From NCBI RefSeq assembly GCF_910592395.1, contig NC_088312.1, forward strand, positions 18,049,292 to 18,113,291: a DNA stretch of 64,000 bases, given 5' to 3'. Below the pieces are notes generated by a model, which saw only the letters and a program-made list of their open reading frames with translations, was not told the origin of the DNA and ran no database searches. Below are positions 39,604-60,085 of this stretch, piece after piece (the first letter of the stretch is position 1; the number at the start of each line of letters is the position of its first letter). Source of the DNA: Lineus longissimus (Eukaryota; Nemertea; Pilidiophora; Heteronemertea; Lineidae). A program made the position numbers and the translations under genes.

Positions 39604-40480
39604 TCCATGGGAATGCTATCACCTTATGTCATCAGAGAAAAGTTGCTTTTCCAAGAGTTATGGCAGAAGGGTTTAGGCTGGGATGATACATTGGATGAGA
39701 CAACAGCACAGAAATGGCGCATAGGGAAAGGAGAGCTGAAGGAGTTGGATCAATTGGAGATTCCCCAATGTTTACCCCTGGGACTAGGAGAAATCTCAAG
39801 CATTGAACTTCATGGATTTGGAGACGCATCAGAGAAGGCGTACGGAGCAGCGGTATACATCAGAGTGGTAGACCAGAATGGGTACACCGCAACAAGATTG
39901 GTGATGTCAAAGTCAAAAGTAGCGCCAGTGAAGAAAGTGTCACTACCTAGACTTGAACTTCTAGCAGCTGTAGTAAATACAAGATTAGTTAAGTTCGTCA
40001 AGGAGTCACTATCAAGAAACATAGACAGAGTTACAATGTGGACAGACAGTACAGTAACACTTGCTTGGATACGCAAGCCTAGTCATGTCTGGAAGACATT
40101 TGTAGCTAATAGAGTGGAGGAAATCCAAACGACTTGGGAACCTGAGTTATGGAGACACTGTCCAGGAGAAGATAATCCTAGCGATTTGCTGACTCGTGGA
40201 TTGCCAGCAGAAGACTTAGTCAATCGTGAGGAATGGTGGAGTGGACCTCATTGGTTACCATTGTCGACAGATATGTGGCCCAAGGGAAAGTTGTCAGATG
40301 AGTCGAGTGAAGATCTAGAGGAGAAGAAGACAACAACGCGGTCCAATGTGGCCATCGTTGAGGAGCCACCCAAGGATGCGCCAATAGATGCTAGCAGATA
40401 TGGTTCATGGAACAAGCTTACCCGAGTGACAGCGAGAGTCTTTTGGGTCATACAAAAGTGGAGGGGAGAATCCAGGATGA
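39604..40480 (+). pseudogene. BEL RNase H region
   Basis: The frame after the shift begins MGMLSPYVIREKLLFQELWQ. HGFGDASEKAYGAAVYIR supplies the first acidic residue, LPRLELLAAV the Glu and MWTDSTVTLAWI the next Asp, the order of a BEL RNase H. VEEIQTTWEPELWRHCPGED and NPSDLLTRG close the domain. A further frameshift near 40480 moves the coding phase to the integrase frame. Confidence 0.85.
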
Positions 40481-41016
40481 TGAAAATAAAGCTGGAAAGA
40501 TACCAACACTCAACGTTGAAGATATCAGAAAGGCAGAGTTCTACTGGTATCGCCACATTCAGAGGAGCACATATAAAGACGAAATCCAGACATTGGAGAA
40601 CAGAGGTGTTCTTAGGAAGAGTCGCATCCTTAAATTAGATCCCAAATTTGACGAAGTCAACAAAGTGCTCAGAGAAGGCGGCAGGTTACAGAACTCGGAG
40701 TTGAAAGAGGAGACCAAGCACCAAGTGATACTTCCGCACAACCATCCAATCGTGGACAAAATAGTCATGGACATGCATGAGGAGTGCATGCATGCAGGAT
40801 CGGAAACAGTTGTAACCAACTTGAGAAGCAAGATTTGGGTAACTCAGGTCAGGAGGGATGTCAAGAGGATTCTAAACAAATGTCTTATCTGTGAAGTACA
40901 CAGAGCATGTCCATCCAAACAGAAGATGGCGCCGCTTCCTTCAGATAGAGTGTCTTTTTCGCCTGCCTTCTCCGTGGTTGGTGTAGATTTTGCTGGGCCG
41001 TTGTACGTACTCGAGG
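40481..41016 (+). pseudogene. BEL integrase, zinc-binding domain and start of core only
   Basis: IRKAEFYWYRHIQRSTY and LQNSELKEETKHQVILPHNH are conserved BEL text. The HHCC domain is present (HEECMHAGSETVVTNLRSK ending in CLICEVHRA). The core begins VVGVDFAGPLYV with the first catalytic Asp, then the sequence meets the Tc1 insertion at a TA dinucleotide. The remaining catalytic residues are missing and do not reappear on the other side of the Tc1. Confidence 0.85.
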
Positions 41017-41018
41017 TA

Positions 41019-41386
41019 CAATCTCGGTCAGAAGTTATTAACCACCTGATATTTGTAAATTACTCCGTTATTCCCCAATATTTTTTCACCAATTTCTGAT
41101 GCATGGTAGTTAGGTCATTTGTCCATCATTTGGCAAAATGATTTTTCTGATCAATGGGCGGACTTCGGTTTTGTCGTTGTTCAAAGATTACCGGTACAAT
41201 TGAGATTTTCTTAAACTCTGCAATTCCTGAAAATTTTCACCTGTAACATCTTCTTGTTACTGCATAGATGGATATTACCATCAAACATTTTCAAAATATT
41301 TGATTTTTTAACGTGAAAATGGCAACTTTGTTGGGATTTTGGCACTCTGTTTCTGTGTCCAGTGAACAGCACTCCGAGATGACCCC
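41019..41386 (+). repeat. Left terminal inverted repeat of Tc1
   Basis: Begins CAATCTCGGTCAGAAG and ends at AGATGACCCC. Near-perfect complement of 42762-43129. Confidence 0.9.
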
Positions 41387-41632
41387 CTTTCTATAGTTTG
41401 GTTTAGTGGTTTTCCTAGACTTCATCAGTTTCATAATTGACATCCTGATTGAATGGTTGAAACTGACCTGCATTCATCCTTTAGGAAGAACATGGCATGG
41501 GGTTGTAAGATCGCCTATTATATTAGGCCTTGGCCATTGAAAATACTCTCAGTATCTCCTGAATAGCCAGGATGAACCTGGAAAGCACCCAAGTTTTGAT
41601 CTGTTCAGTCTGCTGTCAACACATGTTTTGAT

Positions 41633-42652
41633 ATGCCGGGGACACATGGCTCAAGAGAACTTTCTGAGTATCAGAAAGGTCAGTTGATGTCATTGAAAGC
41701 TGCAGGGAGGAGTAATCGAAATGTGGCAAGGGAAATTGGTTGTTCTCATGCAACAGTGCAATTTTGGTGGACCCGCTTCCACAATGAAGGAAATCTTCAT
41801 TGCCGAGAAAGACCAGGTGCCCCAAAATGCACCACTGAACGAGAGGATAGACAGCTTGTTAGGCAATCGAGGATGCATCCGTTCAAAAATGTGAAATCCT
41901 TAAGAAATGATGTGGGTTTGAGGGCCAGCCTTTCAACTGTTAAGCGGCGCCTCAGAGTGGCAGGACTAAACGGTTGCATTGCAGCACAGAAGGACAAACT
42001 AACTGATGCCCACAAGTTGAGCAGATACAACTTTGCAGTGGCTCATCAAGACTGGACTATTGAACATTGGCGTCAAGTTGCATTCACTGATGAGAAGACT
42101 TTTGTCGTTGGAGATAATGGTCAAGTTTTCGTTCGCAGGCCAAAAGGCCAACGCTTTCATTCAGAATACATCAAAATTGTTCAAAGAAGTGGTAGATTCA
42201 GCGTGCCTGTCTGGGCATGGATGAATTCACGTGGAGACGGACAGATAGTGCGTATAAATGGGAGGTTAAACCAGAATCAGTATCTGCAAATTCTTGCAGA
42301 TCAGATGGACAACATTCATCATGCTTTTCCTGACAGACTTATTTATCAACAGGATAAAAGTCCAATACACACAGCTAGGCGTGTTGGACAGTGGCTTCGT
42401 GACCGGGAAATTGAAGTTTTGGACTGGCCTTCTAAAGGGGCTGACATGTCGCCAATTGAAAATGTTTGGTCAAAGGTTCAGAGAGATGTGGACTTTACAA
42501 ATGTTACTAATCAGGATGAACTGTGGCTTGCTGTCGAGGAAAGTTGGAATCGTCTTCGTGAGGACCACGAGTATTGGGAGGGATTGGTTGTGTCACTTCC
42601 TGATAGAATGAGGGCTGTTATAGAATCTAGGGGTGACTGGACTAGGTTTTGA
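41633..42652 (+). CDS. Tc1-like transposase, DD34E
   Basis: A 339-residue uninterrupted frame, the usual length for Tc1 transposases. Residues about 8-60 form a paired-like HTH (LSEYQKGQLMSLKAAGRSNR, VAREIGCSHATVQFWWTRF), and a second HTH follows (TVKRRLRVAGLNG). The catalytic domain has Asp in AFTDEKTF, Asp in YQQDKSPIHTA (where QQDN-x-P-x-H is commoner) and Glu in WPSKGADMSPIENVW, with 34 residues between the last two. It cuts at the element ends and reinserts at TA. The start ATG follows directly on non-coding leader; alternative upstream starts do not extend the domain. No mutation suggests loss of activity. Confidence 0.92.
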   Translation: MPGTHGSRELSEYQKGQLMSLKAAGRSNRNVAREIGCSHATVQFWWTRFHNEGNLHCRERPGAPKCTTEREDRQLVRQSRMHPFKNVKSLRNDVGLRASLSTVKRRLRVAGLNGCIAAQKDKLTDAHKLSRYNFAVAHQDWTIEHWRQVAFTDEKTFVVGDNGQVFVRRPKGQRFHSEYIKIVQRSGRFSVPVWAWMNSRGDGQIVRINGRLNQNQYLQILADQMDNIHHAFPDRLIYQQDKSPIHTARRVGQWLRDREIEVLDWPSKGADMSPIENVWSKVQRDVDFTNVTNQDELWLAVEESWNRLREDHEYWEGLVVSLPDRMRAVIESRGDWTRF

Positions 42653-42761
42653 ATAAACTGTTGTTGTATGGTGATAGTAAAGGTGGGGTAGAGACTAAGC
42701 ACAGTAAAAAAACCCACTATAGTCATTGGACCTTTGTTAATAGGGAAGTGGTGAAGCTTGA

Positions 42762-43129
42762 GGGGTCATCTCGGAGTGCTGTTCACTGGACACAGAAACA
42801 GAGTGCCAAAATCCCAACAAAGTTGCCATTTTCACGTTAAAAAATCAAATATTTTGAAAATGTTTGATGGTAATATCCATCTATGCAGTAACAAGAAGAT
42901 GTTACAGGTGAAAATTTTCAGGAATTGCAGAGTTTAAGAAAATCTCAATTGGACCGGTAATCTTTGAACAACGACAAAACCGAAGTCCGCCCATTGATCA
43001 GAAAAATCATTTTGCCAAATGATGGACAAATGACCTAACTACCATGCATCAGAAATTGGTGAAAAAATATTGGGGAATAACGGAGTAATTTACAAATATC
43101 AGGTGGTTAATAACTTCTGACCGAGATTG
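42762..43129 (-). repeat. Right terminal inverted repeat of Tc1
   Basis: Complement of 41019-41386; ends GACCGAGATTG before the flanking TA. Confidence 0.9.
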
Positions 43130-43131
43130 TA

Positions 43132-44285
<1,154 letters not shown>

Positions 44286-44397
44286 GCGGTCAGGTTGTCG
44301 CCCCGTTTGGAATTAGAGACCGCATAAATAATACACGATCAGAGTCGCCAAATTCCACTGGAATTTCCATGTACCCCAGCAAGGAGGAGTTCTTAAG

Positions 44398-47300
44398 ATG
44401 CCTGTAGAAGAGAAGCGGAATTTCTACAAATGCCGAGGAAATTATGTGGGTTCAGGGGACATCCCAACATGGTCTACATTGGCAGAAGAAGGGAAGTTTG
44501 ACAAGACGAGTAAACGCAGGTACCAACCTAGTCCCAGTCTTAATGAGAAGGTTTCAGTTTGGCAAGGTGACATTACATGCCTGGAGGTGGATGCTGTCGT
44601 AAATGCCGCTAACAAATCTCTCTTAGGAGGTGGAGGAGTTGATGGGGCAATCCACTCAGCAGCGGGCCATCAACTTGTTGAGGAAACAGGGAAACTGGGT
44701 GGTTGCCACTGCGGAGATGCCAAGATAACGGGAGGATACAAGCTACCTGCCTCAAATATTCATACAGTCGGTCCAAAAGGCAAACATGAAGCTCAGCTAA
44801 GGAGTTGTTACTTCAGGTGTCTGGAGGTCATGAGAGCGAATGGGTTAAAAACACTCGCCTTTTCTTACATCTCGACTGGATTATATGGGTACCCCAGTGA
44901 AGAGGCTGCAGAATTTGCTTTGGAAGCGGTTAGAGGGTTTCTAGATCTACATGGAAACGAAATACAGCGGATTATCTTCTGTGTGTTTTCGCAAGAGGAT
45001 TACAAGCTATATTCCAAGTTGTTACCACAATTCTTTCCGGTAGACGATGCTTCCTATACTCGGAGACTCGAGTTGACTGGGATGGATGTTACAGAGTCTA
45101 GCCTTAATTCCAGAGATGATGGGGTATCAAACTCTACTTCTGAAGATGTCTCCACTGCAATGATGGAACCGACCGTTAGTAATGTACACACTGTGGGTAC
45201 TTCTCCTGACTCATCATTGATTCCAATTGCGTTGTGCCAAGATTCCTTCCAAGGAGCGTCCATGGTGTTGCCCTGCCAGCTGTTAGGGAAAGATGTCACA
45301 GCCCTTGTAGATCTGGGAGCGATGGTTACCGTGATGAGTAAAGATTTTTACGAGTCGCTACAGGAACCACCAACACTGAATGAGAAGGCTGAGCTGAGAG
45401 GAGCAGGAAATGATAAACCAATGGAAGCTCGAGTATGCAAGGGACAGTCCATCGTGATAGCGGGAGAGACATTCTCTCTGGACTTCTGCGTAGCTCCGAT
45501 CAGGGACGACCTTTTGCTAGGATTTGATTTCTTGGAACGACATGGAGCCCTGGTGGATGTTAGGAACAGCAACATATGTCTCGAGGGAATCAAAATTGCT
45601 GCGTCCATTGTCAGAGGAAATCAAAGAAAAAAGGATGTAATAGTCAGAAACGAGCGAGTTGGTAGTACATGTACTAACCCCGAAGTTGATGAGACGGTAC
45701 CAACCGATCGACCTCCGGATGTGGAGCCAGAACCAAAGGAAAAGCCGGCTCCGATCAAGAAGAACCCAAGAGGGAAGGCCTTTGTTAAAAATGTTCAAAC
45801 TTCAAGGAAGATAAATGTACCGCCCAACTCCGTTACCTTCATCGAGGCACATGTTATCCATCCAGTCCACAAGAACACGTGCGTGGTTTTCCAACCCAAG
45901 AACAACATCGAAGGGCTCCGGTTTCCCTCAGTGCTGACTAAAAACAAGCCGAAATTTTCTGTAAATGTTATCAATCTCACAGATCGGAGTATCAACATAC
46001 CAAAGGGAACTTTACTAGGGGACGTCTCGGAGGCCGATGAAATTATAGAGGATGACCCATATCTTGAACAGCTGTCGCCAGGGGGAAGTGGCGGTGCTTC
46101 GATCAATCGAACAGAGTCGGTGCCTGGAGATAAACCAGAGGAAGAAACAACAGATTGGGATGAGACACTGCCGGAACATTTGAAGGGTTTATATCAACGT
46201 TCCTGTACCGAATTGACGCCAGATCAGAAGCAGCAGGTGGGAAAACTCCTGTTTGATTTCCAAGACATTTTCTCAAAACATGATTTAGATACTGGATGTT
46301 TTGAAGAGATAGAACACTCAATCGATACGGGAGATCAGCGGCCAATTAAGCAGAGGATGCGGAAGACTCCGTTAGGATTTGAAAATGAGGAAGAGGGACA
46401 TCTAACCAAACTTCTCGATCATGAGATTATCACTCCGGCGAATTCAGCCTGGTCACCACCACCAGTCCTAGTGCGGAAACGGGATGGAAAAGTGAGATAC
46501 TGCCTGGATTACAGAGTCCTCAACTCCTGCACCAAGAAAGACTCATTTCCAATTCCGTCTGTGGATTTGTGCCTGGATACATTAGCAGGAAGTGAGTTCT
46601 TTAGCACTCTAGACCTCGCCTCTGGATACTACAACCTCAAAGTTAAGAAGGAGGATAGACATAAGACAGCGTTTGGGACAAAGTTCGGTACGTTCGAACA
46701 TATTCGTCTACCCTTCGGCCTTTGTAATGCACCGGCCACGTTTCAAAGAGCGATGGAGCTGATCCTGCGGGGTTTGACATGGAAGACAGTACTGGCCTAC
46801 CTAGATGACATTATAGTTCTAGGAAAGACGTTTGAGGACCATATGACGAACCTCCGAGAAGTCTTTGCCCGCCTGAGGAAGTACAACGTCAAGCTTAAAC
46901 CTAGCAAGTGTACGCTGTTCCAGCGAGAAGTCGATTTCCTGGGGAAGAACGTCAGCTCAGAGGGTGTCAAGATCAGCCCCAAGAAGATGGACGTGATTAG
47001 GTCTTGGCCGGTACCAAAGAGCGCGAAAGAGTTAGCCACGATAGTTGGGTACGCTAGCTATCATCGGAATTTCGTCCCCCACTTTGAAGAAAGAGTGCTC
47101 CCCTTCCGGAATCTGATTGCCGACAGCAAGAAGACGGGGGATTTCGGGTGGACCGAAGAGAAGCAACAGGCTTTTGAAGAGCTCAAGGAGATCCTTTCAT
47201 CGGCACCCTGCTTGGCATACCCTCTTCCACAGGGAAATTTTGTCCTTTATACAGATGCATCTAGCAACTCAATTGGAGCTGAACTCTCGCAGGTACAGGA

Positions 47301-48069
47301 TGGGGTAGAGCGAACAGTGGCCTATGCTAGCAATGTACTGGCAAAAGAGCAGCGTAACTATTGTACAACCAGGAGAGAACTGTTGGCGGTAATAAAGTTT
47401 ACCCGGCAGTTTAGGCATTATCTGATAGGCCGTCCTTTCATCCTACGTACCGACCACAGTAGTTTGGCATGGCTGATGAGATTCAAGGAGCCGCAGGGAC
47501 AGCTTGCCCGCTGGTTAGAAGAACTTCAGCAGTATAACATGACGATAGTTCACCGCTCTGGCCGATTGCACTCCAATGCTGATGCGTTGTCACGAATTCC
47601 AAGCGAACAGGAACCGTGTGATTGCTATCGAGCTGGTGTGGATCTTGAAAGCTTACCATGTGGAGGCTGTAGGTACTGCTCTAAGGCACATAAGGAATGG
47701 GATAGGTTCACCCAAGATGTGGATGATGTCGTTCCGTTAACTGTGAGGTCGGTTATGGTGAATTTGGTGGAGGACTCATCACAAGACAATGAGATGGACG
47801 TGCCAGTGAATCAGCAAAACTCTGTATTAGAAGATCCTGTACCAAAGGTTCAAGACGCCAATCAAAGTGAGGATCGCTGCACAGCAGAAGAAGAGAATAT
47901 ACCTTCTGATTCAGAACTTGATACAGACACATCAAGGCCCTCTGAGGTCAACTGGCTTGAACGTTACTCCTCTGAGGATTTGAGAGCAATGCAATCAAAA
48001 GATCCAGCGTTGGGAAAAATCATAAGCTGGTTGGAAAGGACAGACCCGAGTCAGCAGAATTGTATCTAA
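44398..48069 (+). CDS. Gypsy-1 Pol: MacroD-type macro domain, protease, reverse transcriptase, RNase H
   Basis: An uninterrupted 1223-codon frame. Residues about 49-211 are a full macro domain: GDIT (57-60), NAAN (69-72), GGGGVDGAIH (77-86), CGDAKITGGYKLP (105-117), IHTVGP (121-126) and ISTGLYGYP (158-166). The Asn, Asp and His residues used by MacroD-type hydrolases to bind and cleave ADP-ribose esters are all present. The leader (GDIPTWSTLAEEGKF) also looks MacroD-like. A retropepsin follows with LVDLGAMVTVMS, where Thr or Ser is expected after the Asp (D305-L-G), and LLLGFDFL. RT has RYCLDYRVLN, FSTLDLASGYYNLKV, LPFGLCNAP and AYLDDIIVLG (YLDD about residue 800). RNase H has LYTDAS, RRELLAV and RTDHSSLAW. 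A Cys cluster (CDCY, CGGCRYC) precedes the integrase, which is one base out of frame at 48060. Confidence 0.92.
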   Translation: MPVEEKRNFYKCRGNYVGSGDIPTWSTLAEEGKFDKTSKRRYQPSPSLNEKVSVWQGDITCLEVDAVVNAANKSLLGGGGVDGAIHSAAGHQLVEETGKLGGCHCGDAKITGGYKLPASNIHTVGPKGKHEAQLRSCYFRCLEVMRANGLKTLAFSYISTGLYGYPSEEAAEFALEAVRGFLDLHGNEIQRIIFCVFSQEDYKLYSKLLPQFFPVDDASYTRRLELTGMDVTESSLNSRDDGVSNSTSEDVSTAMMEPTVSNVHTVGTSPDSSLIPIALCQDSFQGASMVLPCQLLGKDVTALVDLGAMVTVMSKDFYESLQEPPTLNEKAELRGAGNDKPMEARVCKGQSIVIAGETFSLDFCVAPIRDDLLLGFDFLERHGALVDVRNSNICLEGIKIAASIVRGNQRKKDVIVRNERVGSTCTNPEVDETVPTDRPPDVEPEPKEKPAPIKKNPRGKAFVKNVQTSRKINVPPNSVTFIEAHVIHPVHKNTCVVFQPKNNIEGLRFPSVLTKNKPKFSVNVINLTDRSINIPKGTLLGDVSEADEIIEDDPYLEQLSPGGSGGASINRTESVPGDKPEEETTDWDETLPEHLKGLYQRSCTELTPDQKQQVGKLLFDFQDIFSKHDLDTGCFEEIEHSIDTGDQRPIKQRMRKTPLGFENEEEGHLTKLLDHEIITPANSAWSPPPVLVRKRDGKVRYCLDYRVLNSCTKKDSFPIPSVDLCLDTLAGSEFFSTLDLASGYYNLKVKKEDRHKTAFGTKFGTFEHIRLPFGLCNAPATFQRAMELILRGLTWKTVLAYLDDIIVLGKTFEDHMTNLREVFARLRKYNVKLKPSKCTLFQREVDFLGKNVSSEGVKISPKKMDVIRSWPVPKSAKELATIVGYASYHRNFVPHFEERVLPFRNLIADSKKTGDFGWTEEKQQAFEELKEILSSAPCLAYPLPQGNFVLYTDASSNSIGAELSQVQDGVERTVAYASNVLAKEQRNYCTTRRELLAVIKFTRQFRHYLIGRPFILRTDHSSLAWLMRFKEPQGQLARWLEELQQYNMTIVHRSGRLHSNADALSRIPSEQEPCDCYRAGVDLESLPCGGCRYCSKAHKEWDRFTQDVDDVVPLTVRSVMVNLVEDSSQDNEMDVPVNQQNSVLEDPVPKVQDANQSEDRCTAEEENIPSDSELDTDTSRPSEVNWLERYSSEDLRAMQSKDPALGKIISWLERTDPSQQNCI

Positions 48070-48969
48070 CTTCGCCCGAGGTCAAGGCGCTGTGGTTGAA
48101 GAAGAATCTGCTTGAGATCCATGATGGTGTATTATATCACGCCTGGATTCAGGACCCTGTTTCAAGGAAGTTGTTGGTGGTGCCAGGTAGTCTGCGTGCA
48201 GAAGTCCTTTCCTGGTGCCATGACTCACGTGTGGCTGGACATCTGGGGAGGGATAAGACTCGGAGCAGAGTCCGACAGTCCTTCTACTGGTATAAGATGA
48301 ACATGGAGATAGATGATTATGTTCAGACTTGTGCCATTTGTAATAGATATAAAAGGAGTAACCAGAGGAAAGCCTCACTGAGAAAAAATCATGCAGGATA
48401 TCCCATGGAACGAGTCCACATTGACATTTTGGGCCCATTTACCCCCAGCGATCGCAACAATGTTTATATATTAAGCATGATCGATCAGTTCACCAAGTGG
48501 GTGGAGTGTGAGCCATTGCCGGAACAGACAGCGGCACTTGTAGCTGAAGGGTTCTTGAAAAAGTTTATTACCACCTTTGGATGCCCTTTAAGTATCCATT
48601 CCGATCAAGGGGCCCAGTTTGAAAGCCGGTTGTTTCAGGAACTCTGCAAGTTGTTGGAAGTAACAAAAACCCGTACAACGCCATACCACCCTTCTGGGAA
48701 CGGCCAGGTGGAGCGTTACAACAGGGTACTCCTACAAATGATCCGGTGTTTCATAGAGGATAACGTAACCACATGGATGAAGAGTTACCATATCTAACCA
48801 TGGCGCTGCATGCTACTGTACATAAACAGACTCACTTCACTCCCAATCGGATGATGCTCGGAAGAGAGGTCCTTCTCCCACTAGACGTGATGCTGGGTAC
48901 GATTCCGCCAGAATGGAAGCTGCCAAACAAATGGGTACAAGAATTGGAGAAACATCTTTCAAGGACACA
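48062..48969 (+). pseudogene. Gypsy-1 integrase, N-terminal and catalytic domains
   Basis: Follows pol after a one-base shift near 48060 and continues in two frames (48060-48797, then from about 48773). The zinc domain is WCHDSRVAGHLGRDK...CAICNRYK (HHCC). The catalytic Asp-Asp-Glu is complete: HIDILGP, IHSDQGAQFE and NGQVERYN. A second one-base shift near 48772 leads into EELPYLTMALHATVHKQTHF and MMLGREVLLPLD. The frame breaks off at LEKHLSRTH where the LTR of Gypsy-2 begins (48970). The C-terminal part is found at 53131. In Gypsy elements integrase joins the cDNA to host DNA. Confidence 0.88.
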
Positions 48970-49149
48970 TGTTACGTATTTTAAAGATACACCAATTTGC
49001 CTACGACAATAACAACTAATGTTTTCATGATTGCTAAATAAGTACCACGCACAATGCTGATTGATGTGATTTCAAGTAGCTGATCAAAATATACGATTTA
49101 TGTTGAATTCAGAGTCGCCCAACTCAATTCATCACCCAAGCATGAAACA
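48970..49149 (+). repeat. 5' LTR of Gypsy-2
   Basis: Starts TGTTACGTATTTTAAAG, ends GCATGAAACA and is immediately followed by a TGG-type primer-binding site. It begins precisely where Gypsy-1 integrase similarity stops. No second copy is available to confirm the ends. Confidence 0.65.
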
Positions 49150-49167
49150 TGGTGTCAGAGTACACGA
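49150..49167 (+). promoter_or_regulatory. tRNA primer-binding site of Gypsy-2
   Basis: TGGTGTCAGAGTACACGA directly after the LTR end CA. TGGTGTCAGA-type sites prime minus-strand DNA synthesis in many Gypsy elements; the tRNA used is not assigned. Confidence 0.6.
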
Positions 49168-49287
49168 ACTGAACAAGCCCGCTGCACAGTGCATTGCATA
49201 AATACTGCAAAAAAATTCGCGTTGTAGTGACGTTATACCAGCCACGCTGAATTCGCACTACTGTAAAGCACACGCTGTCCCGTCAAG

Positions 49288-49690
49288 ATGGCTGATCCAG
49301 CTCCTGCCCCCGGCCCTGCTGCTGCCGTTGCTGTGCCTCCTGCAGGGTTTGTACCGACAAACCTACCACTCCCTGACAAGTTGGAACTACAGGAAGGAGA
49401 TATTGCCAAGAATTGGAAGCGATGGTTGAAAGATTTTAACAATTATTTGATCACTGCCAGACTACAAGATGAGAAACCAGAATACAAGCTTGCCCTGATG
49501 GAATCCACAATTGGTAGAGATGCATGCCAGTTGATTGAAGGTTTTTCCTACGAAGATCCTGCCCATGCCAAGGAGTTGAAAGTCATTTTCGACAAGCTTG
49601 AAGCTCATTGCATTGGTCAATTGAATGAAACTTATGAACGTTTTCAATTCAATTCGCGCACACAGAAGGATGATGAAAGCATTATGTTTA
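49288..49690 (+). pseudogene. Gypsy-2 gag, N-terminal part (one-base deletion at its end)
   Basis: Starts MADPAPAPGPAAAVAVPPAG, then DKLELQEGDIAKNWKRWLKD, typical of short Gag proteins of the Mag lineage. A one-base loss near 49683 shifts the reading frame; the other frame continues without interruption as a capsid (LRRLAKTCNFGTLEESLIRD) and then into pol. In intact relatives gag and pol are one open frame. The Ala/Pro-rich start and ATG context make 49288 the natural start. Confidence 0.82.
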
Positions 49691-52600
49691 TGTCGCCGCA
49701 CTACGCCGCCTAGCCAAAACATGCAACTTTGGTACACTTGAGGAATCGCTCATTCGAGACCGCTTAGTCACAGGAATCACAGATTCACGCTTGAGAAAGA
49801 AACTTTTGCAAGATGCAAAACTGACATTAGAATCCGCAATACATACTTGCCGCGCGTTTACTACAACCGAGAAGCATGTCAAGCAAATATGTCATGATTC
49901 CGTGCACATGATGAAGAAAGGACAATCGCAATCGCACTCAAAAGACTGTAAATACTGTGGTAGAAAGCATCAATTTGGTACACAACATTGCCCAGCATAT
50001 GGAAAGGAATGTTCGAAATGCCATGGGGTCAACCACTTTGCATCAGTCTGCCTGAGCAAGAAGAAGTATACACAAGCTGCATACAAGCCGAAACATGACT
50101 ATGAAGACTTGCCCGGAAAGAAAGGGAAACCTACGGAGAAACGTGGAGGAAGTCGGAAAGGTCACAGAGGGAAACAGAAGCTACACGCGATGGAGCATTA
50201 TGCCCAGGAATCTGCCAACAGTACAGATGACGAGGATGATTATCTCCTATCGATGAACGATAAACAGGACTTTCCTAAGAAATTATTCGCAAAGCTGAAA
50301 TTGGGAATGCCTGGTGTTTCAATAAGATTCCAGATTGACAGTGGATCGACTGTCAATGTGTTGCTCCTCGATCAATACAAGCGCATTTTCAAAGATGACG
50401 ACCTCCAGTTCCTAGAGAAAACCAACCCGCTGTCAATGTTTAATAAAACAGAGATACGCCCAGAAGGGAAGAGACATGTCATGGTTATGAATCCGAAGAA
50501 TAGCCGCCGCTACAGAATAGAGATTATCGTCGTACCGGAAGGTATACCCATCCTAGGTGCCCAATCCGCGCTGGGGATGAAACTGATTAAGATCAATAAA
50601 GACAACATAATGCAGATGTCTACTCAGAATGGCGAAATACCCGAAGAAGTCCAAGAGATTCTCGACAAATACAAGGACGTCTTCGAAGGTGAAGGTCACC
50701 TTGAACACAAGCTCCACCTAGAGGTCGATCCAGCAGTAAAGCCAGTCAAGCTTCCTGTCCGAAAGTTGCCACTTTCCGTCCGAGATAAGCTGAAGTCAGA
50801 ATTAGACAGACTCGAGAAGCTGAAAATCATCGCGCCTGTTGATAAGCCAACAGATTGGGTGTCCTCTATGGTAGCTGTAACGAAGCCTAATGGAATGATA
50901 CGCCTATGCCTGGATCTAAAACCATTGAATAAAGCATTGAAGAGGAACCACACGTACTTGCCAATGATTGATGATATCCTACCAGACCTGAAAGACGCTA
51001 ACGTATTTTCCGTTGCCGATGCCAGAAACGGATACTGGCATGTAGAATTAGACGAGGAATCAAGCTATCTAACCACTTTTTCTACTTTTTATGGTCGTCG
51101 GAGATGGTTAAGAATGCCGTTTGGAATCTCCCCTGCAAGTGAAGAGTTCCACAATCGCCTGAAAGAAGCACTAGATGGTTTGCCAGGAATAGCAGCTATT
51201 CATGATGATATCCTCATCTATGGAAAAGATGAAACCGACCATGATCGCCACTTAGAAGCCCTGCTACAACGATGCCGTGAGAAAGGGATAAAGCTGAATA
51301 GAGACAAGCTAAAAGTCCGCCTAAATGCCGTGCCGTTCATGGGTCACATACTCACTGACCAAGGTCTGAAGATGGACCCAAGCAAGCTAGAAGCCATTCG
51401 AAAGATGCCAGCCCCGCAAGACAAGCAAGGAGTTAGACGCCTATTAGGAATGATCAACTACCTTCAGAAGTTCGCCCCGATAGCTGAACTAACTTTGCCG
51501 CTTAGAGACTTGATAAAGAATGAAACCGAGTTCACCTGGTGTGAAGACATCCATGGGAAAGCACTCGAGAAGATTAAAGATGCACTTAGTACACCGCCTG
51601 TACTCGCCTACTTCGATCCAGCGAAGCCCACCACGATCCAATGCGACGTGAGTATGTCAGGATTAGGAGCCTCGTTGATGCAACAAGGACAACCTATCGC
51701 GTATGCCTCCCGCTCGATAACAGAGACTGAAACTAATTATGCGCAAATAGAAAAAGAGTTACTCGCGATAGTATACGCCGTCGAACGTTTCCATACCTAC
51801 GTATATGGTAGAAGGATAACAGTAGAATCCGACCACAAACCGTTGGAATCCATCCTAAAGAAGAACCTGACATCCGCTCCCAAACGTCTTCAACGAATGA
51901 TGCTACGCCTACAGCACTACGATTTTGAAGTCGTCTACAAGAAAGGAACCGAGATGCATCTTGCCGATACATTGAGCCGAGCCTACCTCGAGACAACAAA
52001 TGGAGATGAAGCCTTCGAAGCAGTACACCAAATCGACTATGTCCCTATGTCGATTGAACGCCAAGAAACTATCCGTAACGCAACCAGCGAAGATCCAGCC
52101 ATGAAGACACTTGCCAACAGCATACGTAACGGATGGCCTGAAACCAAAGACACTGTCCCGTATGCTGTCCGTGATTACTACAACTTTCGTGACGAGATGA
52201 GTGTCCAAGATGGTTACATCTTCAAAGGTCATCGCCTGGTTGTTCCAGAGAAATGCCGTCCCGAGATCATCAAACGTATCCACAGCAGTCACATCGGTCT
52301 ACAAGGTTGCCTGAGAAGAGCCCGAGAATGCGTCTATTGGCCCAGATTATTCAATGATCTGAAAGCCTTAGCTGATAGATGCGAAACCTGCAGCACGTTC
52401 CAGGCCAAGCAGCCGAAAGAGACAATGGTACCCCACCAGACCCCTACTCGTCCTTGGGAACTGGTAGCCTGCGATCTATTCCACTGTGATGACCAAGACT
52501 ACCTCGTCCTCACAGACTACTACTCCGATTTCATCGAAGTCGATCGCCTGCAGAACAAGAAAGCGCCAGAAGTCATTGGTAAACTGAAAGCCCATTATGC

Positions 52601-53130
52601 CCGCCATGGTTTGCCAACTGAAGTGATGACAGACAATGGTCCGCCGTACGACTCCCAGAAGTTCAAAGATTTCGCCAAGCAGTACGATTTCAAGCATGTT
52701 ACCAGCTCTCCTCATTACCCACAGTCAAATGGTAAGAGTGAGAGTGCCGTAAAAGTCGCTAAGAAGATCCTGAAGAAAGCCCATCGATCCGGTGAAGACC
52801 CGTACCTAGCCCTCCTTGCCCAGCGAAATACGCCAACTGAGAACGTCGGATTGTCACCTGTCCAAAGATTGTTTGGAAGAAGAAATCGCACAACACTGCC
52901 TGTTCACAAACACTTGCTCAAACCACAAGCTCCAAACGACAAAGATGTCCAACATCGCTTAGGAACGAGACAAGACAAGAAAGCCAAATACTACAATCCG
53001 CACACCAAAGACCTGCCACCACTGAAGCAGGGAGACGTTGTCAGAATCCAGCCAACTGACAAAGGCCGTACTAAATGGGAGAAAGCCATTGTGAAAGAGA
53101 AAATTGCCACACGCTCATACAACGTCGAAA
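49691..53130 (+). CDS. Gypsy-2 Gag C-terminus and Pol polyprotein (protease, RT, RNase H, integrase)
   Basis: One open frame with its first in-frame ATG at 49791. Zinc knuckles: CKYCGRKHQFGTQHCPAYG and CSKCHGVNHFASVC. Protease: FQIDSGSTVNVLL (DSG). RT: IRLCLDLKPLN, SVADARNGYWHVELD, RMPFGISPASEEF and AAIHDDILIYG, with HDD in place of the more usual Y-x-DD as often seen in this lineage. RNase H: TIQCDVSMSGLG, QIEKELLAIVYA and VESDHKPLESI. Integrase: zinc residues in IHSSHIGLQG and CETCSTFQ; catalytic Asp in ACDLFHCDDQ, Asp in VMTDNGPPYD and Glu in QSNGKSESAV. No chromodomain. Only the end of integrase and the 3' LTR are missing; the last codons up to 53168 belong to Gypsy-1 sequence. Confidence 0.9.
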
Positions 53131-53685
53131 AAGGACTACGATGTCCGGGCCAAGGAAGGAAAGTTTGATCCTGGAGACGTGGTGTACAAGTTGAGCGAGG
53201 CGGTGAAGACTGGAATAAGCAGGAAATTGTGTCCTCCGTGGCGTGGCCCATTTCTGGTTGTAGGAGCCCGTCCGCCAGTGTACAAGGAAGGGGATCCAAA
53301 GCGCAAAGTATATGTACATCATGACAAGCTGAAACTGTGTCACGACAGATCTCTGCCAATTTGGTTGAAAAGGGCACGTCATGAGTTCTTCGAGGCTGAA
53401 GATGGAAGGGTAAGTGATCGGGATCAGGGTCCTGCAGATCCTAAGGTACCTGGGGCAGGTGCGGTAAATGTACCGGAGCCTAGGGAACAACTTGAGCCGA
53501 CGAAGGAAGCAGATGTTGCTGACGGAATGCCTGCAGAACTAGTACCGGTAGCCACTGAAGAGAGAGATCATCCTTATGATTTCTTGGAGGTAGAGGAGTT
53601 GGCAAACCTTTTCAAGGAAGAACGGTTTACCAAAAGTGGCCGGCGACAGCGGGATCCGGCGTGGATGAAGGACTACATAGTTTAA
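53131..53685 (+). pseudogene. Gypsy-1 integrase C-terminus, separated by Gypsy-2
   Basis: The frame KKDYDVRAKEGKFDPGDVVY-KL is the typical post-catalytic segment of Gypsy integrases. SRKLCPPWRGPFLVVG is a GPY/F module and HHDKLKLCHDR follows. The tail has an acidic/Pro region and ends TKSGRRQRDPAWMKDYIV, a common final motif of Gypsy Pol. It fits the missing end of the integrase broken at 48969. Confidence 0.85.
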
Positions 53686-53930
53686 GGACTCTCTGTGTTC
53701 GGGGTTGAGGAGTTCTTACTTCTTCCTCGTACATATGATATATTACAACTATGTAGTTCTTGTATTTGGATTCTCTGTGGACGAAGGACTGCACAGTTAA
53801 GGACTCTCTGTGTTCGATGTTGAGGAGTTCTTACTTCTTCCTCGTACATATGATATATTACAACTATGTAGTTCGTGTATCTCTGTGTCAACTGGTTGAG
53901 GAGTCATTACTTCTCCCAGGTATCATATGA
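53661..53930. repeat. 116-bp tandem duplication after Gypsy-1 pol
   Basis: GTGGATGAAGGACTACATAG (53661) recurs as GTGGACGAAGGACTGCACAG at 53777, with the following 90 bp nearly identical (GGACTCTCTGTGTTCG, CATATGATATATTACAACTA). A third, partial copy extends to about 53930. The first unit overlaps the last codons of pol. Confidence 0.85.
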
Positions 53931-54192
53931 AATTTGTGTATCTTCTGATATTGGGAATTCGTTAACCATGTTACCTGTAAATATTCAAAACGGTTTGGAA
54001 ATACTCTAGTTTCGTCTTTCTAAGGTACCTTCATTAAGCCCAGGTTAGCCCGCCTCCAACATACAGGGCAAACACCATCTGGAACATGATTGGATGGCGC
54101 CGGGCAAGGCAGGGGAGTATAATGAAGTTCATCGGTGTAACTGACACATTTCTCGACGGGTCGCGTAATTGATCAGATTGTCCATAGTCAAA

Positions 54193-54356
54193 AGGCCTTT
54201 TTACATGGTGCGGGTTCGAAACGGATCGAGGAAGGTTCGGATATTTTCTACACGCACAAATGAGCCTTTGGTCATTGTGGCCAGTTTCTATCAGCGTGCA
54301 AAAAATAAGCAAACCTTCCTCGATCCGGTTCGAACCCGCACCGTGCTAAAAGGCCT
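54193..54356. mobile_element. Foldback MITE (164 bp) inside the pogo element
   Basis: AGGCCTTTTTACATGGTGCG, continuing through GGTTCGAAACGGATCGAGGA (54193-54237), is inverted at 54312-54356 with a few mismatches. The right arm contains CGGTTCGAACCCG, which resembles a tRNA T-arm or pol III B box, but no tRNA fold is completed. Confidence 0.7.
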
Positions 54357-54512
54357 AATATGACGAAACATGAAATGAATATCCCTTTGATGATCAGGCT
54401 TATCGACTGATTCAGTTGAAGGAAAGTGTCATTATACGTACAGGATGGTTCAAAAAAATGTTCACGTTCGAATCGGAAAAATCCGTACAACCAATGCAGA
54501 GTCGCAATAAAT

Positions 54513-55869
54513 TCAGTCCATTTCTATTTCCTCCTCCAGAATGTTGACAAACTCAAGCCCAATTTCCTCCTCCTCTTGGTCTAGCTCCCGCAGTGGTCCG
54601 GCGTCAATTGGGGTTGCCCTGAACAAGGCCAACTCGAATCCACTCTCAATTACTTGCGGAGGTACAGCTTCCAAAGCCGCACTCACGATATTAACTACCT
54701 CACGCAGCCCAATACGTTCACAGGTCCCGTCATCTTGGGTGTTGTCATTTTTCCAGGCTTTCCACGTCTTCCGCAAATTGTTTTTAAAGGATTTCATCAC
54801 GGCAACATCGAGGGGTTGTGCCAGAGACGTACAGCATGCCGGGATAAAATTCAGGATGCCTCCCAATTCTGTCACTCGGAGACCGAAATTCTCCGTGCGG
54901 TGCACTCTGTACCCATCCACGAGGAGAAGAAATTGATCGGTATCTTGTGTGGTGATGTATGGCTCGAATACTTCATATAACCAATGATTGGCAGTCTCAT
55001 CCTTCATCCAACCTGTAGCGGAGGAGGTTATAATAATGTTTGCAGGCAAGTCCTCCTCTTGCAGGGCTGCCAGTTGTCGGACGAAACCAGTCCTCGGAAA
55101 AGTGATGTGCGCCTGTAACTTTATATACTCCCGTCGCGGTGATGGTAAGGGTCACCGTACAACCCAGCTTGGTGTTGGATCGTGACGTCCGCACGTCAAC
55201 CGACTTGGCTCCCCTGGCGTTGGCTGTGTACAAAGGACGAGACTCGAACAGTGCAAACGTCTGGTCCATATTGAAGAGTAATTGCAAGGCAATCTGAAAC
55301 TGGTCGATCGTCTGCGTCACGTCGTCGCGGAAGACTTTGACACGTTGGGCAGCGTCAGCCGGCAGAGTGCTGGTATTCTTATTCACTTTCCGGAGAGAGA
55401 TCTTCTTTCTCTTCATGAATGCTTCTACCCATCCGGCGGAAGCGTGGAAAACGTGCTGTGTAGGTCTGGACTCTATGAAGCCTTGTCTTTGTTCGTCCGG
55501 CAACTGATTCCACCAGTCTTCAAAAATCGTCATAGCACTGGCTTGTATGTCCTGGATCGCAATAGGCAGCCTCCTCTCCCTCAGCCGCTGGTACCATTGG
55601 TAAACACGCTCCTCGACAACCGGCCATTGACCCACCAGTCGCTCTTTGACTGTCCTGTCCTTGCCGCGACCTTCGCGCTCTTTCTCTTCCAGGTCTTCAA
55701 GGTTCCACTTTCTCAACGTTAAAACTAGGATCTTGTAATGTTCGGCAAACTCGTTCATGCTTTCGACTGTTCCATTCAATAGCCCTGTCTCAAGTTCCCG
55801 CAAGTACGCTATTTTCTCGGATACCGAATAGCTCCTTCGCCGTTTTCTCAAGGGTTCTTCTTGTTCCAT
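54513..55869 (-). pseudogene. Pogo-like transposase (CENP-B-type HTH plus DDD domain), one frameshift
   Basis: Starts MEQEEPLRKRRRSYSVSEKI. A psq-type HTH (NEFAEHYKILVLTLRKWN) is followed by a CENP-B-like DNA-binding domain (ERLVGQWPVVEERVYQWYQR to FIESRPTQHVFHASAGWVEA). The catalytic domain has Asp in LLFNMDQT, Asp in LLLVDGYRVHR and the last Asp in SLAQPLDVAVMKSF. Near 55124-55131 a one-base change moves the frame; both sides carry clear homology, so the gene is about 450 codons with a single lesion. The C-terminus is acidic (DQEEEEIGLEFVNILEEE). The related relic on the plus strand at 16090 matches throughout. Confidence 0.88.
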
Positions 55870-56449
55870 GTTGACTGTTTGTCTGGGGGCGAGTGATCAT
55901 CGGCGTTAGGCCTTTATAGGCCTAGGATGTCTAGACATGTTTTTAATAGAAGAAAGTGACAACGTGTGCCATAAAGCCATGAAATAACCGTTTACATCGC
56001 GTCTGGCAAAAGCAAGGCACAGGGCCTACTGAATTTTAAATTTTATGAAATTCAATTTTCTCTGTAGTGAATTAATTTCACTAATTAATTTGGGACTCAA
56101 TAAGAGGTAGGTCAATCCGATATCCACATCAAGTTGTAGGTCTGGATGCTGAAATGGGGCTTTCTTAACGAGACATTAAAATGTTGAAGATTGTTTTTCT
56201 GGCACACTCTGTATGAATCAACCCATTTGCCGATTTTGGAATAAACCCTTGAATGAAACTGACATTTCCTGGGACATGTGCATTGACCGTCTCGTCGCAG
56301 CCGGTGCAAACCTCATGCAGTTCGGCCATTCACATTGGTCAGTGATGTTGAATAGAACTGAATGATCCATTGTAATGGTAACTTGGGGCTGAGGCCTAAA
56401 TACCGGCATGAATGTATGGAAGGTACCTTAGAAAGACGAAACTAGAGTA

Positions 56450-56783
56450 TATGAGGCGTATGTACAACGAAAACAAGACTTGTTGTTGGTACGTGTTGTG
56501 GTTTGAGTGCTTGAGTTCGGCATTTGTTTAATTTTGGTTGGTATCAGTTTATGTCGGTTCAATTACGTTTGCTTCTTATTTCTTTAGTTGCTATCGGGAA
56601 GTAAGCTTCTAATTTTATTATACTTGGTAAAACAATATGTAATGGCTACTGATCACATGGTTATTATGTTGTCACTGGACGCTGCTGCCTTTGTTAATGG
56701 CTTTAGTTGGAAACGTACTGGTTTACAGTCCTGCGTGTCCTGGTCAGAAATTGGTGAGTCGTGGATATGTTATTACCAGTCCT
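56450..56783. other. No gene seen between pogo and Harbinger-2
   Basis: T-rich sequence. GTTATTACCAG at 56769-56779 recurs at 59951 and 61792, so this may be the upstream flank of the TatD unit, separated from it by the Harbinger-2 insertion. Confidence 0.35.
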
Positions 56784-56966
56784 GGGTCCTTATTCACGAA
56801 GCTTCCGTAAGGACTTACGGTACCGTAAGACATACTTACGGCACCGCAAATATTTACGCTGTATTCACAGAGCGACCGTAACTTTGCGGATCCGTATGTC
56901 AGGACCGCAAATCTGCGTGAGGTCCTGCGCCGTCCGCAAGCATTACTACAGATATACCGATTTGTA

Positions 56967-58186
56967 ATGGCAGTCGCATTGATAGTCGAGGAACAAATAA
57001 ACAGGCGTGCGTGGAGGCGTCAGCGAGTGTTTCGGGACAGACTTCAGCCATTCGATATTTATGATGACAGAGACCTCATATCACGGTACAGGATGCCAAG
57101 GCATGTTTTGATGGAAGTGATAGATCTGATTCGTGACGAAGTCGAACACCCAACCAATAGGTCGCATGCAATACCAGCTGTGCTTCAAATCCTATGTGCA
57201 ATCAGGTATTACGCAACTGGAAGTTTTCAGCTTGTTACGGGAGACCTCGGTAATATAAGTCAGCCATCCATATCCCAAATAATCTTCACAGTTTCGTCTG
57301 CTCTACAAGAGGTGTCTGCCAGGATAATTCGATTTCCGATGGACCAAGCTGGACAAAATAGAGTGAAAGAAGGTTTTTACAGTGATGACCGCAGGATCCC
57401 AAATGTCTTGTGATGTGTAGATGGTAGTCTCGTGCCGATCAAGCGCCCTTCACAAAATGAAGAGGCTTATTATGCAGGCATCAATACCCAGCAATAAACG
57501 TGCAAGGTGTCTGCTCCGAGGATAAAAAATTCCTCAACACAGTTGCAAATTGGCCAGGGGCTGCTCATGACGCGTTCATTTGGCGCCAATGCCATCTCAA
57601 CCGGTTGTTGCAGAATGGTGGAGGAAACGATGGCTACCTACTTGGAGACAGTGCGTATCCCTTGGCGCCGTGGCTTTTGACACCAATTCGAAATCCAGAA
57701 AACGAGGCAGAGAGGAGGTATAATTCTCATCAGAGACGTATGAGACAAAGAATTGAGGGAACATTTTCGAGGTGGAAAATGCGGTGGTTGTGCCTACATA
57801 GAGATGGTAAGTAGTGCCATAAAACCGCTGTTGTAAGGTCTATACAGTGCCATCATTATCCATTAAAGTTTGGCTATCTTTGACTTTATTGTCAGGTTTC
57901 AGAAAGAGTGGACCTACATTAAGTATGTAAAACGCATTTGCATTTCTTTTAGGTGGCAACCTTACACTCCGGCCGGAGAGAAGTTGCAAGGTTATCATGG
58001 CAACTGCTGTCCTCCATAATATATGTGAGGTGCATGGTTTACCAGTGCCACGGGGTGCACCACCTAACTTGGTGGACGATGCAGACTTGGACAGAAACCC
58101 CCCCCCCCCCCCCCCCACTCTATCCAGATGATGTGGATGGTCAAGCTGTAAGGAACAGAGTAATCAGACAAAATTTCGGGAATTGA
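56967..58186 (+). pseudogene. Harbinger-2 DDE transposase, exons 56967-57806 and 57953-58186
   Basis: Begins MAVALIVEEQINRRAWRRQR with the Harbinger N-terminal HTH region (FDIYDDRDLISRYRMPRHVL). A TGA at 57411-57413 replaces a sense codon just before CVDGSLVPIKRPSQNEEAYY (first catalytic Asp). A one-base loss near 57476 follows. NWPGAAHDAFIW holds the second Asp and RQRIEGTFSRWKMRW the Glu. Exon 1 ends GATG|GTAAGT, and exon 2 after CTTTTAG continues LRPERSCKVIMATAVLHNIC. A run of about 18 C at 58090-58108 breaks the frame again before LYPDDVDGQAVRNRVIRQNF and the stop at 58184. Not functional as read. Confidence 0.85.
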
Positions 58187-58271
58187 AGTATGTAATTATT
58201 CAATAATACAATACATAGTTGCAATACAGAGTGGCTTCCGCATACATTACTTGATAACTTTTGGAAGAAGG

Positions 58272-59541
58272 CTAGTGCGCACCCTTCTTACCCAGCTTTT
58301 GAAACAAACCTTCAGTGATGGCGCTTACATTGGGGCAGGGTTTAGGAGCATTGCTGATAGATTGTTGGCGAGTCATCAGTTCCAATTTTTTCTTTTCAAT
58401 GTCAACAAGTTGCTCAAGAGTGGTCAGAGTCTTCTCTTCGACCTGCAAGCGGCGCTTGTCAACATCTAGCCGGCGGGTTTCAACGTCCAGCATCATTTCG
58501 GTTACGGATTTCTTCCCTGCACTTGTACTGTTACTTGTAGTTGGGCTTACACGGGGAGTCTTTTTTGGAGGTGGCTTTGCAACGCGAAAATCCTCGTCCT
58601 GGCTATCAGCTGGTTCATCGAAGTCGGAGTAATTGCCGAATGTCTGTGTCGGTGCCTCCATCAGCTCATCGAAAGCATCATCGGACTCGACACAAGCACG
58701 AGTTGCCGTTGCACTTTGACGCGAACGCTGCAATACAAACGATGTGACGTAATATTGACTGCCTATAGTGGAAATTATTTCGCCATGATGAGGTATAACT
58801 TCATTCTTGTAGATTTAAGGTTATATGAATACTTTGAATTGTATTTCAGCATGTTATCCAGCCGACGTCTGACCAAACATTACGCTAATACGTCCTTAGA
58901 GGAGGAATACCTGCTACCGCCCCCTTGTAGGCATTCAAAACTGGGTCAGATCGAACAATAGGCCTAGTCCAAGCTGCTACCAGAGGGAAAATGACGCACG
59001 AGATAAATGTTGTGATGGGATGCAATAATTTGATAAGTTAATTAGCCGAAGTGTGTGGTATGTCAAGGTTCAGTAACTTATGTGATTAAAGCTTATTTTC
59101 ACAAGTTCCTACCTTTGATTCTTTCTTATAGCTCGGTAAAGCGGCGGTGTCATACTCGTCACGGTTGTTAATACCGAAAACTTGAGCAGCGCCCAGCATC
59201 CCGATGACACGTCGCTCTGTATCGGTCAGAGAATCGCTCTTGGGACTCCTCGGGACATTACCGGTCTTGCCATCCCTTGTCCGATCCTCGTTGGCTTTTT
59301 TCTTGGCACGCACTTTAATATCGTCCCACTTCTTTTTTACTTCCTCTACAGTTCGTAGAGACGGGCTGATGGCGTTTAACTTCCTAGATATTTCCAACCA
59401 CGCGTCATTTTTTCTTTTAAGGGTGACTTGGTCACTGAATTTCGATGAAATAATCCGGTAGTTGTCCTCCACCAACTCGATGAGTCGATTAGTTTCATTG
59501 GGAGTGAAGTTTTTCTTTCTCGTCCTCTTTGGCTACGACAT
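58272..59541 (-). pseudogene. Harbinger-2 Myb/SANT-like protein, exons 59541-59113 and 58727-58272
   Basis: Exon 1 begins ATG TCG TAG, so the third codon is a stop; the rest of the frame is open (KKNFTPNETNRLIELVEDNY, WLEISRKLNAISPSLRTVEE, KKKWDDIKVRAKKKA), a Myb/SANT-like trihelix. It ends AAAG|GTAGGA. Exon 2, after ATTGCAG, joins in phase 0 and has an acidic segment, a Lys/Pro-rich stretch (KPPPKKTPRVSP) and a coiled coil (ETRRLDVDKRRLQVEEKTLT). Partner protein of the Harbinger-2 transposase. A downstream ATG could in principle bypass the stop, so inactivation is likely but not certain. Confidence 0.82.
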
Positions 59542-59947
59542 CTTCACGGCTTCAGAACCACAGACCAAGTGACTCTACAAACGTCTGGCCAGTGTATTAA
59601 AACGCATGCCGAAAAACTGACGAATAAGGCAATAAGATCTTATGTAAGAGGAATATTTGTCCCATTGCTATCCATTGATTATGCCCTCACAATTTTTAGC
59701 CGAGTTGCGGTCATTGCGCAATTTACGGATCCTTACATTTATGGAGTCGTTACGGGATGTTTTGTGAATACCCTTAACCAACATTTCACGGTCCCGCAAT
59801 GCCACCGTAAGGCCCTATTTGCGGTACCGTAACTCAAAAATTTGCGGAAGCTTCGTGAATAAGGACCCTGGCTTTTCCGAGAGCTGGCCGCTGTCCTGCA
59901 GTGTTGTTTCTCTATGTATTGTTGGTTTGGGGAACTGGTGGCGAAGG

Positions 59948-59963
59948 TAGGTTATTACCAGCT
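59948..59963 (+). repeat. 16-bp direct repeat upstream of the TatD gene
   Basis: TAGGTTATTACCAGCT, identical to 61789-61804 on the far side of the gene (1841 bp apart). The 11-bp core is also at 56769-56779. Confidence 0.6.
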
Positions 59964-60085
59964 TTTGCTACTTGTTCCATTTCAGTACTATTTTATTGCA
60001 GTAGGCGTCCGTGGTAACGTAATTATTATTTTGGTTGCGCTTGTGTCATGGTCTGGGTTGTTGGAGTATTTCCTCCGCTTTCAGG

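Follow-up and report, generated by a model that had tools for sequence, protein, structure and literature searches.

Why the Pol reading frame of a retrotransposon should carry a MacroD-type macro domain is the question raised by a 64,000-nt stretch of the Lineus longissimus genome (contig NC_088312.1, positions 18,049,292 to 18,113,291 of the forward strand; hereafter the window). The reading that we favor, with moderate confidence and on sequence comparison, is that a nemertean Ty3/Gypsy element captured the host's own MacroD gene and carries it in Gag-Pol as an ADP-ribose eraser. The evidence comes from other copies of the element, from the phylogeny of the domain and from sister families in which the same slot holds a predicted hydrolase of a second class.

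A macro domain at the head of Pol

The Pol frame (Table 1) is a single open frame of 1223 codons on the plus strand with four Pfam domains in order (macro, aspartic protease, reverse transcriptase [RT] and RNase H), and the E values of the four domains within one frame rule out chance. An earlier note on this DNA had described just such an unbroken frame, lying whole between a damaged gag and a damaged integrase, and both descriptions held, as did its motifs, all of which were found in the translation. The gag is truncated at its 5′ end, at position 43129, and the integrase is frame-shifted and then split. The note's statement that Pol begins with the macro domain stands insofar as this is the first Pol domain, but the frame's natural start probably lies elsewhere than at the ATG at 44398; upstream of this ATG the frame of the window copy is shifted, unlike that of a related copy, C1 (below). 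MACROD1 and MACROD2 are closest to the domain in sequence and fold, residues 1 to 216 of the window model matching MACROD1 residues 105 to 325 in both respects. Residues N72, D82 and H86 align to the N, D and H of MacroD, and we take them to be equivalents of its catalytic residues.

The fusion as a family trait

The genome assembly searched comprised 391 Mb in 30 contigs, after which loci are labeled here (C1, C2, etc.; the window copy lies on C5). The macro region returned 10 matches, seven of them rows at six retroelement loci with a MacroD-type domain (the window, C1, C2, C13, C15a and C15b) and three of them rows of the host MacroD gene on C3. Protease and RT matches follow the macro domain at five of the six loci, with broken frames in C1, C13 and C15a; at C2, similarity to C15a ends ∼52 nt into the protease. 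C1 is a full-length element with 5′ and 3′ long terminal repeats (LTRs; five mismatches in a 404-nt LTR alignment, TG..CA ends) and a 4-bp target-site duplication, ATTG on both sides. It is 96 to 98% identical to the window copy in protein and, in DNA, 98.2% and 98.6% identical in two blocks at 43129 to 48971 and 94.8% in the block that follows. C15a, C15b and C2 make up a second lineage (macro domain 56 to 58% identical to that of the window copy) and C13 a third (60%). A metagenome (JGI) protein of 1630 amino acids, P0003, has the order macro, protease, RT, RNase H and integrase, its frame starting within the leader of the domain; its macro domain is 61% identical and its RT 81%. The macro fusion is a trait of a Gypsy family, seen in three lineages in the genome and in a metagenome relative; the concern, raised in the earlier note, that it might be a one-off insertion was settled by the six loci and P0003. 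The N/D/H equivalents are retained in six of the seven MacroD-type retroelement copies examined, the window included.

The order protease-RT-RNase H-integrase, that of Ty3/Gypsy elements, is present among the family loci and in P0003. In C1, gag is a 1006-codon frame with a Retrotrans_gag domain and two zf-CCHC stretches, and the pol frame opens 10 nt inside it and runs on into the macro domain; in C15b the two frames overlap by 53 nt. Because the C1 pol frame opens within gag and enters the macro domain, Pol is probably made as Gag-Pol, and the overlaps in C1 and C15b point to frameshifting. The MacroD-type domain sits between nucleocapsid (the Gag zinc knuckles) and protease. Between the integrase and the 3′ LTR of C1 no frame exceeds 105 codons, and thus no env was found, although a spliced or badly broken env would escape such a search.

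Viral contigs yielded no macro relative and a single pol relative (L030), in which no macro domain was matched at E 0.01. Contigs in prokaryote metagenome-assembled genomes gave four Gypsy-like pol loci (L026 to L029), also without a macro match at E 0.01, L028 being covered only from RT onward; these contigs are probably eukaryote contamination. It is also worth noting that NCBI lists the macro region of the C1 retroelement (C1:10417570-10418235, L011) as a host gene, “macro domain-containing protein CT2219-like [Lineus longissimus].” That RefSeq protein is identical to the C1 copy over its whole length, ends at the C1 stop and is the best protein match of the window macro region (96%), a reminder to annotators that a retrotransposon macro copy can enter a gene catalogue as if it belonged to the host. 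The two outer flanks of the C1 element (C1:10410323-10411130 and 10423129-10423937) share an 811-column stretch at 96.7%.

Origin of the MacroD-type domain

In a tree of 40 rows, the host MacroD groups with the five retroelement domains in a single clade (support 99/96), with MacroD of another nemertean, Tubulanus, and 33 further rows outside (trees with the host MacroD omit two long-branch rows, Panagrolaimus and Ligilactobacillus). A clade of retroelement domains only received 97/93 in a tree without the host gene, in which the bootstrap had not settled; with the host MacroD added, it falls among the retroelement rows, a retroelement-only clade still being allowed (approximately unbiased test, p-AU 0.291). 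Arthropod, sponge and bacterial MacroD genes were considered as sources and are unsupported, since the host gene joins the retroelement clade. Matching stretches of the host gene on C3 are spread over ∼3 kb in separate pieces (intron-containing). Because the retroelement form is uninterrupted while the host gene is in pieces, it was probably an mRNA that was captured.

The earlier note had proposed that a cellular MacroD-like gene was captured together with its IPTW-type leader. Capture of the cellular host MacroD is supported by the clade with the host gene and the MACROD1 match, and would include the leader in two copies: those of the window and C1 match the leaders of animal MacroD proteins and that of the worm's own MacroD gene, the window leader matching its first piece. 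For the remaining copies the leader is less clear, as the leader, used by itself as a query, matched none of the C15, C2 and C13 copies; IPTW is nonetheless present in the C15b frame.

A predicted hydrolase of a second class in the slot of sister families

The protease-spacer region, used as a genome query, gave at least 50 matches (121 of 142 candidates scored), including related pol genes without a MacroD match, and the slot between CCHC knuckle and protease was read in C5b, C14 and C10. In C14 the slot holds a macro domain of another class, with five PDB matches, all to C6orf130/OARD1, that is, TARG1 (best E 2.6e-28), and a Pfam Macro match at E 4.2e-5. Searching the genome with this domain gave five rows: C14, C11, C5b and two pieces of the host OARD1 gene. 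The order in C11 is CCHC, TARG1 domain, linker and protease, the frame changing ahead of the last of these; its best PDB match is OARD1 (E 3.2e-42), its Pfam Macro match reaching only E 0.0014 and failing the Pfam cut-off. The C11 domain is 55% identical to host OARD1, 45% to C14 and 97% to C5b, and the distance from domain to protease is ∼1.9 kb in C5b versus ∼0.55 kb in C11. Both TARG1 catalytic residues, which we take to be K84 and D125, are present in C11 and C5b. By sequence assignment, then, sister families (three loci: C11, C5b and C14) hold a TARG1/OARD1-type hydrolase class in the MacroD slot.

A tree of spacer plus RT (30 rows) places the MacroD-type and TARG1-type elements, C10, P0081 and C4 in one clade of 11 (100/99). 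The two types interleave inside it (C13 with C5b, 84/87), a single clade uniting the MacroD rows, P0081 and C4 still being allowed on RT (p-AU 0.169). This tree was built without C11 (RT not included) and without L026 to L029 and the window's second Gypsy, which an earlier tree had included; P0083, which filled 48% of columns in that earlier tree, was dropped. P0081, whose frame begins after the slot, and C4, which is 5′-truncated, are uninformative on slot content. No macro domain is known in the 19 rows outside the clade, most judged by protein annotation alone and the rest by tblastn of the available sequence. A PHD finger (PF00628), another chromatin-linked accessory domain, is present in 6 of 17 related Gypsy pols (P0085, P0086, P0088, P0089, P0092 and P0093).

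Two of these loci have further features between or around the domains. The C10 relative (L056, C10:8252440-8255766, frame 1468-2679 on the minus strand) has two protease-like stretches before RT, with repeated “QVEL” segments between them, and C5b (L052, C5:13866110-13869463) has a frame between TARG1 domain and protease that resembles a THAP zinc finger.

Selection on the macro domain

Between lineages, the proportion of synonymous differences in the macro domain (pS) is 0.77 to 0.78, i.e., saturated, and that of nonsynonymous differences (pN) is 0.25 to 0.29 (95% ranges within 0.20 to 0.35). Protease pN lies above this (0.38 to 0.40), whereas RT pN is lower in the comparison with the C15 lineage (0.17) and similar in that with C13 (0.245). 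The TARG1 domains of C11 and C14 differ with pS 0.85 and pN 0.39. For the MacroD-type domain, saturated pS with low pN points to long purifying selection, as neutral change would have erased the protein. The earlier note had tied maintenance of the domain to its ratio of nonsynonymous to synonymous change (dN/dS) across copies, and here the outcome is divided: dN/dS is close to 1 in the youngest copies, which differ by few changes, but comparisons between lineages give a pN well under the saturated pS. The macro domain was thus maintained in the past, and the copies that the genome now contains seem to be decaying.

Proposed role and alternative explanations

In the proposed mechanism, a nemertean Ty3/Gypsy lineage would have taken the host MacroD mRNA and read it as the first Pol domain. 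With frameshifting from gag, the enzyme would enter the particle as part of each Gag-Pol and could be freed there by the protease; in the particle or the pre-integration complex, it may then strip mono-ADP-ribose, placed there by host PARP-type enzymes, from element proteins or complementary DNA (cDNA) ends. Frameshifting, packaging, release, substrate and host pressure are the parts of this account that we infer. ADP-ribosyl hydrolases are, by rough estimate, few among thousands of host gene families, so two such captures into one slot are unlikely without selection, and two different ADP-ribose erasers in that slot argue for ADP-ribose removal as the selected function. A role against ADP-ribosylation, which the earlier note had put forward, is strengthened by the TARG1-type domain of the sister families. 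Viral macro domains are known to counter PARPs.

A wider claim, which we offer tentatively and would not bet on, is that animals may have an ADP-ribose-based barrier to LTR retroelements, acting on element proteins or cDNA ends, and that a Gypsy clade would have answered it at least twice, with MacroD and TARG1 packaged via Gag-Pol. If a lineage did take two ADP-ribose erasers into one Pol slot, this would be evidence that ADP-ribosylation restrains animal retroelements, and it names the proteins to assay. The cDNA-end version is the specific one, since enzymes of both classes are reported to take ADP-ribose off phosphorylated DNA ends: in the excerpt available of PMC5787345, MACROD2 and TARG1 are said, citing earlier work, to reverse ADP-ribosylation of DNA ends, and MacroD1 is shown to act on 5′- and 3′-phosphorylated ends.

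Several observations weigh against the eraser mechanism. The macro domain of the window copy, called complete in the earlier note, is nearly whole but lacks one codon directly before IHTVGP relative to C1. In C1 the catalytic H is replaced by Q; C14 keeps K without the TARG1 D; the TARG1 domain of C5b holds one stop; and C10, a close relative, gave no macro match between knuckle and protease. Synonymous and nonsynonymous changes in the macro domain of young pairs are near neutral, though few (3/6 for window-C1, 2/9 for C15b-C15a and 4/9 for C15b-C2), as they are in the TARG1 domain of C11-C5b (1/6). For window-C1 the macro domain contrasts with the rest of pol (RT plus RNase H 10/6; whole rest of pol 18.7/27.3), while for C15b-C15a the remaining regions are like or nearly like it (linker-protease-spacer 4/19, RT to integrase 12/25 and gag 19.7/64.3). 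The link between PARP and the control of Gypsy-type elements is weak as well: in the excerpt of PMC7712786, misregulated mobile elements in parp-1 mutant flies are mostly up, yet three of the eight significant ones are down, ten further risers (nine of the gypsy superfamily) are nonsignificant, and the effect, as the authors allow, may be indirect.

Near-neutral young pairs, catalytic damage in C1 and C14 and the lack of a macro match in C10 would also be expected of a passenger, a captured domain of little function that the element keeps for some time before losing it. We regard this as improbable, given that the between-lineage pN is well under saturated pS and also under the pN of the protease, and that a second ADP-ribosyl hydrolase class occupies the identical slot. 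A domain kept as an ADP-ribose reader or binder, tethering Pol or the pre-integration complex to ADP-ribosylated chromatin without erasing anything, is unlikely but deserves a hearing: ADP-ribose binding is common among macro domains, and the PHD finger of 6 of the 17 related pols is a chromatin-reader fold. However, catalytic residues are retained in six of seven MacroD-type and two of three TARG1-type copies, and both captured classes are hydrolases, unlike pure readers such as macroH2A.

Alternatively, the enzyme might serve house-cleaning, clearing O-acetyl-ADP-ribose or ADP-ribose-phosphate that disturbs reverse transcription, much as the dUTPase of some retroviruses does, with no host defense involved. 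The slot between nucleocapsid and protease is that of betaretroviral dUTPase, and MacroD1 is termed a promiscuous ADP-ribosyl hydrolase in the excerpt of PMC5787345; we nonetheless think this quite unlikely, as there is no evident reason for such a metabolite to hinder reverse transcription and the data fit an eraser acting against host ADP-ribosylation equally. Finally, the heavily rearranged window copy might suggest an assembly join or a one-off MacroD retrocopy inserted in a dead Gypsy. Such a join or recent one-off is ruled out by the six genome loci and by C1, full-length with LTRs and target-site duplication, which together with the metagenome relative leave this explanation a negligible chance.

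The window copy and its surroundings

The window copy retains a 3′ LTR only. Its similarity to C1 has its left limit at 43129, within gag, adjoining a copy of a Tc1/mariner-type transposon, and its 3′ part lies in pieces with foreign stretches between them (Table 1). To the left of the Tc1/mariner copy is a remnant of another retroelement (window 38808 to 41099, with RVT_1 in 38808 to 39686), which we take to be BEL/Pao-like. A tandem repeat of ∼105 nt at the pol 3′ end is common to the window (53661 to 53880) and C1 (L011 1402 to 1621).

Table 1. Features of the macro-bearing Gypsy copy and its neighborhood (positions are those of the window)
Feature	Position	Strand	Basis
Pol frame: MacroD-type macro domain, aspartic protease, RT, RNase H	44398..48069	+	Open reading frame + Pfam
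MacroD-like region: leader with IPTW, then macro domain	44398..45063	+	
Pfam Macro PF01661 core	44599..44916	+	Residues 68-173, E 4.7e-32
Span of residues N72, D82, H86, aligned to MacroD N/D/H	44611..44655	+	
Aspartic protease, retropepsin-like	45271..45540	+	Pfam, residues 292-381, E 5.7e-7
Reverse transcriptase RVT_1	46471..46950	+	Pfam, residues 692-851, E 1.1e-31
RNase H	47149..47535	+	Pfam, residues 945-1046, E 4.1e-32
Gag remnant, 5′-truncated, end approximate	43129..44286	+	Alignment to C1
Two CCHC knuckles in gag remnant	44112-44153, 44178-44219	+	
Integrase (H2C2, rve), shifted frame	48060..48971	+	
Foreign stretch with most of a second Gypsy gag-pol frame	48972..53126	+	
Integrase C-terminal part and 3′ region of macro element	53127..54003	+	
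Element 3′ region in pieces (56448-56785, 59867-60064, 61533-62065), foreign stretches between	54004..62065	+	
3′ LTR, 93.8% to 5′ LTR of C1 copy	62066..62451	+	
Tc1/mariner-type transposon, 371-bp inverted repeats (99.7%), at the element's 5′ break	41016..43132	unassigned	

Comparison with known systems

Among the literature matches listed, judged by titles and abstract beginnings, no report of a macro domain, MacroD or TARG1, in a Gypsy element was found. The nearest cellular enzymes differ in context: human MACROD1 and MACROD2 are free cellular enzymes, and so is human OARD1/TARG1, which C11 matches at E 3.2e-42 with K and D conserved but as a domain inside a Gypsy Pol. Closest among the viral matches listed (BFVD) are macro proteins of large DNA viruses (Scale drop disease virus ORF_067R, Edafosvirus and Sylvanvirus; 32 to 43% identity), which are free-standing or in other proteins, outside a retroelement Pol. 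Coronavirus, alphavirus and rubella macro domains are also in viral polyproteins, with 17 to 26% identity among the matches listed (BFVD rows 7 to 50, unnamed rows included). In arrangement, a parallel is the dUTPase in Pro of betaretroviruses, an accessory enzyme between nucleocapsid and protease that is reached by frameshift; slot and, probably, frameshift access are alike, and fold and chemistry differ.

Among retroelements, a “Gag protein” of a Rhinella marina endogenous retrovirus (A0A2U9K508) has a macro-like fold by structure search (BFVD listing, E 2.8e-11), although it belongs to a vertebrate retrovirus and shares 24% identity over the match. That LTR retroelements can capture macro domains is itself already known, since fish endogenous retroviruses with a macro-domain open reading frame are in print (Basta et al. 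2009, as cited in the available excerpt of PMC4977317). As described there, those elements resemble the present family in being LTR retroelements that bear a macro domain, which in them is an additional open reading frame of a vertebrate retrovirus; here it is an in-frame N-terminal domain of Pol in an invertebrate Gypsy element in which no env-sized open reading frame was seen. The worm elements differ further from what is described for the fish retroviruses in that the tree places the kinship of the domain with the host gene and that sister families bear a second enzyme class.

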